Assembly: GCA_017399065.1 (NCBI GenBank)
Contig: JAFQEL010000012.1
Span: 62,001 to 126,000 of the forward strand
DNA from: Clostridia bacterium
GTDB taxonomy: Bacteria > Bacillota > Clostridia > Oscillospirales > Acutalibacteraceae
Direction: 5' to 3'
DNA: 64,000 nt
This document shows positions 60,693 through 64,000 of this stretch, in pieces (position 1 is the stretch's first letter; the number at the start of each line of letters is the position of its first letter). The notes under the pieces are model-generated. The model saw nothing but the letters and a program-made list of their open reading frames with translations. It was not told where the DNA came from and ran no database searches. Made by a program: the position numbers and the translations under genes.

Positions 60693-62015
60693 ATGTCCAG
60701 AGATGGCGAAATGAGAGAAAAACCTGTTCGCTGTTCGTTCTGTAATAAGCTCCAGAGTCAAGTCGATAAGCTTATCGCAGGCCCCGGTGTGTTTATCTGT
60801 AACGAATGTGTCGAACTTTGCTACAATATAATTGAGGATGAAGAAGCCAATGCTCCTAAGGCAAAGTCTGATTCAAAGGGTGGATTTACTTTGCCGAAAC
60901 CTATGGAAATCAAGCAGAGACTTGATGAGTATGTTATCGGTCAGGAAGAGGCTAAGGTCGTCCTCAGTGTTGCTGTTTATAATCATTATAAGCGTATTTT
61001 CTTCGGTGCCGATTCCGATGCCGAAATACAGAAGAGTAATATCCTTATGCTCGGTCCTACAGGTGTAGGTAAAACTATGCTTGCGCAGACCCTTGCAAAG
61101 ACTCTCGATGTACCCTTTGCCATAGCCGATGCAACAACTCTAACAGAAGCAGGTTATGTCGGCGAAGATGTTGAGAATATTCTGCTCAGACTTATCCAGG
61201 CTGCAGATTTTGATATCGAGCGTGCAGAGCGTGGTATCATATATGTTGATGAGATTGATAAGATTGCACGCAAGTCCGAAAGCACATCCATCACACGTGA
61301 CGTAAGCGGTGAGGGCGTACAGCAGGCACTGCTCAAGATTATTGAGGGTACTGTTTCAAATGTACCCCCCGGAGGCGGCAGAAAGCATCCGCAGCAGGAG
61401 TTTATTCAGATCGATACTTCCAATATCCTCTTCATCTGTGCAGGTGCATTTGACGGTATGGAGAAGATAATTGAGAAACGTATCGGCGGTTCTGCTCTTG
61501 GCTTTGAGGCTGAGATAAAGGATAAGCGTCAGCTTGAGACCGACTATATTATGGGTCAGGCAATCCATCAGGATCTTGTGAAGTTCGGCCTTATTCCCGA
61601 GCTTGTCGGCCGTATGCCTGTTCTCACAGCTCTCCACGAGCTTGACCGTGATGCTCTTGTTAAGATTCTCAGCGAGCCTAAGAACTCTATCGTCAAGCAG
61701 TATACACAGCTTGTCGGTATGGATGATGTTGAGCTTGTATTTGAGCAGGAGGCACTTGAGGCTATTGCCGATAAAACTCTTGAGAAAAAGACAGGTGCAA
61801 GAGGTCTTCGCTCTATTATGGAGCAGACTCTTATTCCGATTATGTTCAAGGTTCCTTCTGAGCCTACAATTTCAAAGGTTATCATCACAGCTGACTGTGT
61901 GAAGAACGGTACAGCTCCCGATGTCGAGCGTGACGAAACCCGTACCGAGCATAAGCTCACCACTGTGCAGGATTTTTCTGTTGAGAAATCAAAGAAAAAA
62001 AGAACAGCTCGTTAA
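60693..62015 (+). CDS. clpX: ATP-dependent Clp protease ATP-binding subunit ClpX
   Basis: 440 residues. An N-terminal zinc finger (CSFCNK, then CNECVELC), Walker [13 protein letters not shown], Walker [12 protein letters not shown], the pore loop [14 protein letters not shown] (ClpX usually has GYVG here and IGF contacts to ClpP elsewhere) and sensor 2 [10 protein letters not shown]. Unfolds substrates and feeds them to ClpP. TTAAGGAGAATTCCGCA precedes the ATG. The tail is Lys/Arg-rich. Confidence 0.97.
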
Positions 62016-62096: not shown

Positions 62097-62116
62097 GGGC
62101 GATTCACGAATCGCCC
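62097..62116. repeat. Short palindrome of GGGCGATTC type
   Basis: Two 9-base arms (62097-62105, 62108-62116) with a 2-base loop. I recall near-identical dispersed copies in gut Clostridia genomes; no second copy occurs in this window. Confidence 0.5.
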
Positions 62117-62138
62117 GGAAATTAAATCCTTTCATGTC

Positions 62139-62160
62139 CTTCTGAGCGAAGCGAAGAATC
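62139..62160. repeat. Dispersed GAGCGAAGCGAAGAATC-type element
   Basis: TTCTGAGCGAAGCGAAGAAT is a sequence I recall as a widespread intergenic repeat in Firmicutes. Copy number cannot be checked here. Confidence 0.45.
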
Positions 62161-62342: not shown

Positions 62343-62371
62343 TTGCATTATGTTTTTTGCTGTGTTATAAT
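62343..62371 (+). promoter_or_regulatory. Strong promoter before the BspA-like gene
   Basis: TTGCAT (62343-62348), 17-base spacer, perfect TATAAT (62366-62371). The predicted start at about 62378 coincides with the base of a long hairpin. Confidence 0.75.
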
Positions 62372-62376
62372 ATCGT

Positions 62377-62485
62377 TGCGAAACAAATCTTAATATTCCT
62401 GACACAAGTGTGTAATTTTATCTTTTGGTAAAAATACATGCTCATTTTTCGCATACTTGTGTTATGGGAGAAGATTTGTTTCGCA
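62377..62485 (+). ncRNA. Long three-part hairpin in the BspA-like leader
   Basis: From the base upward: a perfect 15-bp helix (62377-62391 with 62471-62485), an internal loop, a 13-bp helix with two G-U pairs (62400-62412 with 62452-62464), then a 7-bp apical hairpin (62416-62422 with 62427-62433). This could be a leader RNA or a separate small RNA ending at the next terminator, total about 163 nt. I recognise no named class. Confidence 0.6.
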
Positions 62486-62508
62486 GCAATCGGAGCAATG
62501 TGTTTTTC

Positions 62509-62540
62509 GTGCGCAGCTTCGGTTGCGCACTTTTTATTTT
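62509..62540 (+). terminator. Terminator just before the BspA-like start
   Basis: A 9-bp stem with one G-U pair (62509-62517 with 62522-62530) closed by a UUCG tetraloop and followed by TTTTTATTTT. It lies between the promoter and the ribosome binding site of the next gene. Confidence 0.8.
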
Positions 62541-62558
62541 AACAGGAGGTAAAATTAA

Positions 62559-64000
62559 ATGAAAACACCAAAAAAAGCATTGGCTGTGGTTATGTGCGTT
62601 GTTATGATGTTGACCGCCACACCTCTCAGCGGTTTTATTGGACTTGATTTAACAGGTCTGTTTGATTTCAAAGCAGAAGCAGCAACGTATTCCGGCAGCT
62701 GCGGTGATAACCTCACATGGGTGCTTGATACAGACTCTGGTGTACTCACAATCAGCGGTACGGGTGCGATGGAGGATTATACATCTTCATCTGATATACC
62801 GTGGGATTCATGCTACTCATCTGTCAAAACGGTCATAATAGGCGATAGTGTAACAACCATTGGTAAAAAAGCGTTCTGTGTTTGTTATTATCTCACAAGC
62901 GTAAAAATCGGTATCAATGTAACATCCATTGGTGAATCTGCGTTCTATAATTGCCACAGCCTTATAAGCGTAACAATTCCTGACAGTGTAACAACTATAG
63001 GTAATTATGCGTTCTCTTGGTGCAATAGTCTCGCAAGCATAACAATTCCCGACGGCGTACCAACTATCGGTTCTTGTGCGTTCTATAATTGCCGCAACCT
63101 TATAAGTGTAACAATTCCCGACAGCGTAACAGTTATCGGTGGTGATGCGTTTCGTGGTTGCACTAGCCTCACAAGCGTAACGATCGGAGACAGCGTAACA
63201 ACTATCGGTGAGTGTTCGTTCTATAATTGCACCAGTCTCACAAGTGTAATAATTCCCGACAACATAACAACCATCGATTATGGTGCGTTTGGGAATTGCA
63301 GCAGTCTTTCAGACGTCTATTATTCCGGTAACGAAGATCAATGGGAACGGATAGCGATAAAGAGTAGCAACGAGTGCTTATTAAACGCAAATATACACTA
63401 CAATTCCATCGGCGATAATCCTACACCCGACAATCCTACACAATTAACTTTGATATCAACTTACCCTGCAAGCGGCGCAACTCAGCTTTCGTATGAAGAT
63501 GATTTGGTTTTAACATTCAATATGAATGTTGAGCGTGGATTATCAACGTTGCATGATGACGGAATTGCATTAGGTATTTATGATTACGATACCGATGAAT
63601 TGGTAAAAAAGATAGATGAATTTTATATAGGGTACAAACATAACGGCAAAACTATGACGTTTGAAGATGCTTTCCGTAAACTTGAACCCGGCAGAAAGTA
63701 TTATATTAAAATCGCAAGCGATGCAGTGCGTTCTAAAACTGCCGATAAAACTTTGTTTTTTAAAGGAATAAATAACAAAGATGACTGGACTTTTTCGTAT
63801 TTTAGTCCAACACAAAAACAAGGCTATTCACTTGATGTGTATTCATCGGACAGAGCGGTTAATATTTCAAAAGGTGAATCTCAAAAAGTAAGTATTGTGC
63901 TTTTGCTTAACGGCGAGCCGTGCGAGCAGGATGGAATATCGTTAAGTGTTGCAAATAACGGTGTGGCTGAAATTAACAGCATTGAACGAGAAAGCGACAG
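62559..64000 (+). CDS. BspA-like leucine-rich-repeat surface protein (3' end off window)
   Basis: About 480 residues are visible and the frame is open at the window edge. ATG at 62559 with AACAGGAGGTAAAATTAA upstream. Signal peptide (about 1-47), then a segment with GVLTISGTGAMEDY, six to seven LRR_5 units of about 23 residues (pattern SVTIPDSVTTIGNYAFSWC) to about residue 260, a SDVYYSGNEDQWERI end cap, an Asn/Pro/Thr linker and a C-terminal beta domain that resembles Big_5 (TLISTYPASGATQLSYEDDLVLTFNMNV). BspA-type proteins bind host or plant surfaces. The cell-wall anchor, if any, would be beyond the window. Confidence 0.88.
   Translation, partial: MKTPKKALAVVMCVVMMLTATPLSGFIGLDLTGLFDFKAEAATYSGSCGDNLTWVLDTDSGVLTISGTGAMEDYTSSSDIPWDSCYSSVKTVIIGDSVTTIGKKAFCVCYYLTSVKIGINVTSIGESAFYNCHSLISVTIPDSVTTIGNYAFSWCNSLASITIPDGVPTIGSCAFYNCRNLISVTIPDSVTVIGGDAFRGCTSLTSVTIGDSVTTIGECSFYNCTSLTSVIIPDNITTIDYGAFGNCSSLSDVYYSGNEDQWERIAIKSSNECLLNANIHYNSIGDNPTPDNPTQLTLISTYPASGATQLSYEDDLVLTFNMNVERGLSTLHDDGIALGIYDYDTDELVKKIDEFYIGYKHNGKTMTFEDAFRKLEPGRKYYIKIASDAVRSKTADKTLFFKGINNKDDWTFSYFSPTQKQGYSLDVYSSDRAVNISKGESQKVSIVLLLNGEPCEQDGISLSVANNGVAEINSIERESD

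Follow-up and report, generated by a model that had tools for sequence, protein, structure and literature searches.

A probable riboswitch-like transcription attenuator with strand exchange ahead of surface-protein genes in gut Clostridia

The locus and its conserved hairpin

The window, which here means the whole 64,000-nt stretch of DNA that was analysed, originates from a Clostridia bacterium (Acutalibacteraceae; assembly GCA_017399065.1, contig JAFQEL010000012.1, positions 62,001 to 126,000 of the forward strand). Towards its end it carries, from 5' to 3', an extended -10 promoter, a 109-nt hairpin, a terminator with a UUCG loop, a Shine-Dalgarno sequence and a gene for a BspA-type leucine-rich repeat (LRR) protein. 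The ORF upstream, presumably clpX by resemblance, ends at 62015 and is followed by a T-rich hairpin before the element, which thus stands at the head of a separate transcription unit. The intergenic region at 62100-62160 contains the repeat-like words 'gattcacgaatcgccc' and 'tctgagcgaagcgaagaatctt', with similar words near elements of relatives (L010 and L016). The parts of the locus are as follows.

62343-62371, + strand: promoter, with -35 TTGCAT at 62343-62348, a 17-nt spacer and the extended -10 TGT-TATAAT (TGTTATAAT) at 62363-62371
~62378, + strand: expected RNA start, predicted from the promoter
62377-62485, + strand: three-tier hairpin (fold z -7.4; P1, P2b and P3 covary in 89 copies)
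62377-62391 with 62471-62485, + strand: P1, the outer stem (sequence and covariation)
62392-62396, + strand: conserved internal loop AAUAU, 5' side, between P1 and the variable P2
62406-62412 with 62452-62458, + strand: P2b (covariation, 89 copies)
62416-62422 with 62427-62433, + strand: P3 (covariation, 89 copies)
62430-62443, + strand: pseudoknot strand 1, AAAAAUACAUGCUC, the P3 3' strand plus loop GCUC, pairing with the linker
62486-62508, + strand: linker with two further conserved partners, pseudoknot strand 1 and the terminator 5' arm
62493-62507, + strand: pseudoknot strand 2, GAGC-A-AUGUGUUUUU, within the linker and doubling as the antiterminator strand
62486-62526, + strand: antiterminator, linker GCAAUCGGAGCAAUG with terminator 5' arm and loop CGCAGCUUCGGUUGC
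62509-62535, + strand: intrinsic terminator, read from the sequence as a 9-bp hairpin with UUCG loop (62509-62530) and a U run (62531-62535)
62544-62549, + strand: Shine-Dalgarno AGGAGG, 3' of the terminator, from the sequence
62559-64000, + strand: gene for a BspA-type LRR secreted protein, ATG at 62559, continuing beyond the window end

An earlier sequence-only reading had placed a promoter so that the RNA starts at the base of the 109-nt hairpin, followed by the UUCG terminator and only then the ribosome binding site of the BspA-like gene. Sequence and coordinates of these parts are as it described them, with the start near 62378 a prediction; the pseudoknot and antiterminator formed through the linker went unseen by that reading. 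The protein encoded by the complete ORF (L007 2559-5744) is 1061 aa long; its N-terminus resembles a signal peptide and it contains LRR_5 repeats (Pfam LRR_5, E 2e-60).

The 216-nt stretch from promoter to gene folds at -72.8 kcal/mol, compared with -44.3 (sd 3.8) for 200 shuffles, none of which was as low (z -7.4). Covariation with related loci, a check that the sequence-only reading had proposed, was assessed on 89 distinct copies found by BLAST or by a covariance model, and the stems do covary. P1, P2b, P3 and the terminator are together 96.3% paired, with 361 doubly changed cells against 89.1 in shuffles, a comparison in which the relatedness among copies is still contained in control (a), as in the other covariation tests. 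Changes on both sides occur in 29 of the 33 pairs of these four stems, and in eight of the nine terminator pairs. The promoter belongs to the conserved unit: among 133 related copies each base of the TG in the extended -10 is 91% conserved, and in 104 of them the end of the best -10 lies exactly 4 nt ahead of model position 1. This recurring position puts the element far beyond chance.

P1 is conserved in sequence and not only in pairing. Above it, the 5' side of the internal loop has the consensus U.AAUA, of which the unpaired T, A, T and A are kept in 77/87, 85/88, 80/88 and 84/88 copies, and an unpaired CAA 3' of P1 is kept in 85/88, 84/88 and 79/87. Because these bases are conserved while unpaired, the internal loop and the CAA are suggested by their sequence as a candidate recognition site. 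The length of P2 is variable and moderately constrained (17-25 nt on the 5' side in the middle 80% of copies).

Two exclusive pairings of the linker

The loop after P3 and the linker vary together across the aligned copies, and the pairing that this reveals is a pseudoknot of AAAAAUACAU-GCUC with GAGC-n-AUGUGUUUUU, 14-16 bp in length and worth -14.5 kcal/mol as a duplex in the window. Across the 89 copies 92.8% of its cells are paired and 75 are changed on both sides, compared with 20.5 in shuffles (0/500 as high), and slid registers reach at most 66.2% pairing. The pseudoknot is 94.9% paired in a second set, A2 (90 copies), in which the linker/terminator half varies little because its members were picked by the linker/terminator pattern. 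The antiterminator is 91.3% paired over nine pairs in the 89 copies, with 21 doubly changed cells against 10.8 (0/500 shuffles as high); doubly changed pairs were no more numerous than in shuffles (5 versus 4.5; 261/500). The window antiterminator has a duplex energy of -20.1 kcal/mol versus -14.1 kcal/mol for the terminator.

Both pairings were also seen in an alignment-free comparison of the duplex energy of a copy's own segments with that of segments from different copies, which left out 26 of 142 distinct sequences that were off the anchor pattern. Own segments bind better for the pseudoknot (loop and linker; z -12.1 in 116 copies, -11.2 in 90 representatives) and for the antiterminator (linker and terminator arm; z -6.9 and -5.8, respectively), and four control segment pairs gave no effect (-0.4 to +1.5). 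In genome G494, diverged copies preserve both complementarities with other letters, as read by eye.

The linker bases are common to pseudoknot and antiterminator, and these two exclude each other; the terminator 5' arm is in turn common to antiterminator and terminator. Since linker and arm are each shared, there are two compatible sets, pseudoknot with terminator, or P3 with antiterminator. Two features expected of an attenuator are found here, an intrinsic terminator ahead of the start codon but behind the promoter and a conserved alternative pairing that excludes it, as is one feature expected of a riboswitch, a conserved folded domain coupled to an expression platform.

These pairings bear on two simpler views of the leader. 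The hairpin could be a passive 5' stabiliser or insulator, with a leaky terminator setting the expression level alone, and the 5' end of the transcript, judged from promoter position, does fall in P1 in most copies. However, a covarying pseudoknot and antiterminator are not predicted by such a role, which we regard as improbable. A leader-peptide attenuator coupled to the ribosome might be considered for those copies, such as the second one of the window genome, with an open frame from a loop AUG to the terminator. Yet conservation does not extend to the loop AUG, one of 89 RNAs has an AUG at an SD-like distance, and no frame is stop-free throughout the 51 sequences (of 89 rows) that were long enough, leaving this explanation with very little credit.

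Distribution and the genes behind the element

The element belongs to a large RNA family in gut Clostridia and is not an isolated oddity. The window genome (G000) has one further copy (L002 833-1072), in which the sequence of the outer stem differs and its pairing is kept, ahead of an LRR_5 gene that also matches dockerin. Two 5S rRNA genes lie side by side ~400 nt upstream of this second copy. A DNA search in relatives gave matches in 27 of 59 genomes, and a covariance model, R1, built from 23 aligned copies matched 69/197 genomes (45/111 genera) in an order sample and 77/291 genomes (50/181 genera) in a class sample. In a phylum-wide sample (398 genomes, E 1e-6), in which few members of the class were seen, R1 matched only the window's own genome. 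Twelve rich genomes chosen for full scoring contain 9 to 25 copies each, and one element count was made after leaving out four antisense and two weak matches. The exact linker-terminator pattern occurs in at least 118 stretches in named genome contigs; among the 80 loci listed for it, nearly all belong to metagenome-assembled Clostridia, Oscillospiraceae or Ruminococcaceae, and herbivore guts are the source of many.

Tandem elements, with the next copy 46-178 nt on, occur at 13 loci, counted from 15 listed because L189 repeats L093 and one match at L111 is weak. Two or three elements stand in tandem before one gene at L150 (6404-7239), L074, L099, L112, L198, L199, L204, L206 and L207, each element apparently with its own promoter, and at L150 the beginning of the gene recurs, as a truncated copy, behind the first two. 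Elements were also seen on two unverified and unannotated human-faecal contigs named 'Bacteriophage sp.' (L218 2075-2231 and L219 3975-4133), which may be bacterial.

With up to 25 copies per genome and a patchy distribution, the family could be taken for a mobile, MITE-like palindromic repeat. Against this, stem sequences differ among the copies of one genome while pairing is kept, the orientation to promoter and gene is fixed, plasmids gave no element match, and viral contigs gave no match to the exact pattern, the two faecal 'phage' contigs being the most that could be counted; a mobile repeat is therefore highly implausible.

The element is placed directly ahead of genes. In 89 of 131 copies the U run is followed within 40 nt by the start of an ORF that has a Shine-Dalgarno sequence and encodes at least 40 aa, compared with 2/131 on the divergent side and 148/2720 random positions; the remaining 42 copies have no ORF that passes this simple downstream test. 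A signal-peptide-like N-terminus, called by a simple hydrophobicity rule, was found in 56 of 73 controlled proteins (at least 100 aa) versus 197 of 818 mechanical background ORFs of the same loci. Pfam matches for 91 downstream proteins (two of 93, from L113 and L101, were left out) comprise LRR_5 (18), dockerin (9), Listeria-Bacteroides repeat (8), ricin-type lectin (4), CHAP (4), AMP-binding (3) and C-type lectin (3). The controlled genes are diverse, with no common metabolic pathway. In the window genome both leaders precede LRR_5 genes, and as LRR_5 matches occur in ~16 ORFs (counted by hand), most of its BspA-like genes are without a leader.

Several controlled proteins (L001, L002, L010, L084 and L104) have in common a signal-peptide motif like PLSGF(I/V)GLDL. 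The main non-exported target seen is an AMP-binding, acyl-CoA synthetase-like enzyme without a signal peptide (L023, L127 and L136). Many leaders of G494 stand ahead of BspA-like proteins and at least three ahead of AbrB-like small proteins, as labelled by eye; those after the leaders L209, L211, L216 and L217 look AbrB/SpoVT-like with a zinc-ribbon tail. Such AbrB-like proteins may be regulatory proteins that are controlled in the same way.

The sequence-only reading had left two options, an attenuator for the surface protein or an independent 6S-like RNA. The former is supported by the mutually exclusive and covarying terminator, antiterminator and pseudoknot and by the placement of an ORF with its Shine-Dalgarno sequence; the 6S-like option is not. 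Were the ~160-nt terminated product a small RNA in its own right, either 6S-like or acting in trans, the gene behind it would be incidental. A strong promoter, a strong terminator and the tandem copies would suit such an RNA, but ORF starts close behind the U run are far above controls and the conserved antiterminator pairing would be superfluous. The 6S RNA of this genome also lies elsewhere (G000:C25:33687-33880; 56.1 bits versus a gathering score of 46.4) and the element itself is unmatched by the 6S model (RF00013). The element is similar to 6S RNA in length and in its long hairpin, and differs from it in the conserved terminator and the gene behind. We therefore hold an independent small RNA to be unlikely.

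Proposed mechanism and known RNA classes

The element is probably a cis-acting, riboswitch-like transcription attenuator that uses strand exchange and mostly precedes genes for exported or surface proteins. We infer termination, read-through and which state would be signal-bound. RNA would begin at the base of P1 from a constitutive-looking promoter, and the P1-P2-P3 hairpin would fold first. In the off state the linker would pair with the P3 3' strand and the adjoining GCUC, nucleating at GCUC and then displacing the P3 5' arm in a toehold-like exchange that opens P3; this pseudoknot would tie up the antiterminator strand, so that the terminator could form and the gene would be off. In the on state P3 would stay intact and the linker would pair with the terminator 5' arm, so that transcription could continue into the gene for the surface protein. 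The choice between the states may fall to a signal received at P3, the pseudoknot or the conserved internal loop, with stabilisation of P3 predicted to turn the gene on and stabilisation of the pseudoknot to turn it off. As the pseudoknot joins the top of a ~30-bp stem to the stem base, the linkers must stretch or the stem bend.

Nearest-neighbour sums over 87 rows (two of 89 left out), which ignore the topology cost of the pseudoknot, favour pseudoknot plus terminator by a mean of 5.1 kcal/mol (sd 4.8), this set being lower in 76/87; an earlier comparison with a shorter antiterminator, superseded by this fuller version, had the off state lower in 85/87. For the window (L001) the gap, summed by hand and with the pseudoknot cost again ignored, is ~2 kcal/mol. 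The modelled energies suggest, by inference, a default off state near balance between the two.

What would work the switch can be pictured in two ways. Tentatively, the family may represent a new class of riboswitch, a pseudoknot RNA that works by strand exchange and through which one shared small signal sets the exported and adhesive proteins on uncultured gut Clostridia. It is also quite possible that, instead of a small molecule, an RNA-binding protein (an antiterminator or a terminator-promoting factor) acts at P1, the internal loop or P3. The sequence conservation of P1, the diversity of the controlled genes and the AbrB-like small proteins under the leader in some carriers are in keeping with a protein, though LoaP specifically does not fit: it scores over the cut-off in 47 of 291 genomes, which are 47 of the 214 non-carriers and none of the 77 carriers, and it was rejected as a general partner. 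Leaders that depend on LoaP for processive antitermination have a 5' hairpin before terminators in Clostridia and belong to long biosynthetic operons. The element is likewise a 5' leader hairpin before a terminator in Clostridia, but it mostly serves single surface-protein genes, in carriers without LoaP over the cut-off.

Among small signals, c-di-GMP made by GGDEF proteins was rejected as a general signal, as 26 of the 77 carriers have no GGDEF match (counted by hand), including the window genome, which is 99% complete. The c-di-GMP riboswitch models of Rfam gave no match to the window element. These riboswitches often stand before surface-protein genes with several per genome, and in both placement and multiple copies they resemble the element. 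More generally, some transcriptional riboswitches have a terminator and antiterminator controlled by a pseudoknot. With these the element has in common a conserved 5' domain, an exclusive terminator and antiterminator, a strand sequestered by a pseudoknot, a position directly before the gene and sometimes a tandem arrangement; unlike them, its linker replaces the P3 5' arm, its promoter lies within the conserved unit and it has no Rfam match.

The sequence-only reading could name no class for the hairpin, a statement that holds within Rfam 15. The Rfam scan including 6S that it had suggested found no family at gathering score anywhere in the window, and relaxed thresholds on the window gave unrelated families alone, all scoring well short of gathering. 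Rfam 15 likewise gave no match at gathering score to the elements of 20 member loci and of 19 further loci (18 G494 stretches and L002).

No description of the family was found in the literature covered, which included the available text of PMC8632094, PMC11109978 and PMC8040213; subscription papers, preprints and supplementary tables lay outside this search, and for that reason the family may already stand, unnamed, in some large list of candidates. One such list is that of Fremin and Bhatt 2021 (PMC8040213), with 3161 unnamed intergenic candidates from human microbiomes, and this set could include the family. The main text of that paper has no occurrence of BspA, pseudoknot or Ruminococc. 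In kind, the element is probably a transcription attenuator; as a family that unites a strand-exchange pseudoknot, a promoter of its own and a surface-protein regulon, it appears to be undescribed.

If a new riboswitch class is the true reading, BspA-type LRR, dockerin, lectin and CHAP proteins would be switched by it at up to 25 sites per genome, some genes by elements in tandem. The way in which gut Clostridia encounter fibre, the host and their neighbours is set by their surface and secreted proteins, and hardly anything is known about what switches these. For an orphan switch that is common and structurally defined, a ligand or partner protein would name a surface-changing signal of mostly uncultured bacteria, and the three competing pairings give exact, testable compensatory changes. 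Two other RNAs, Gut-1 and drum (L035 846-1027 and L210 1894-2014), lie near elements.
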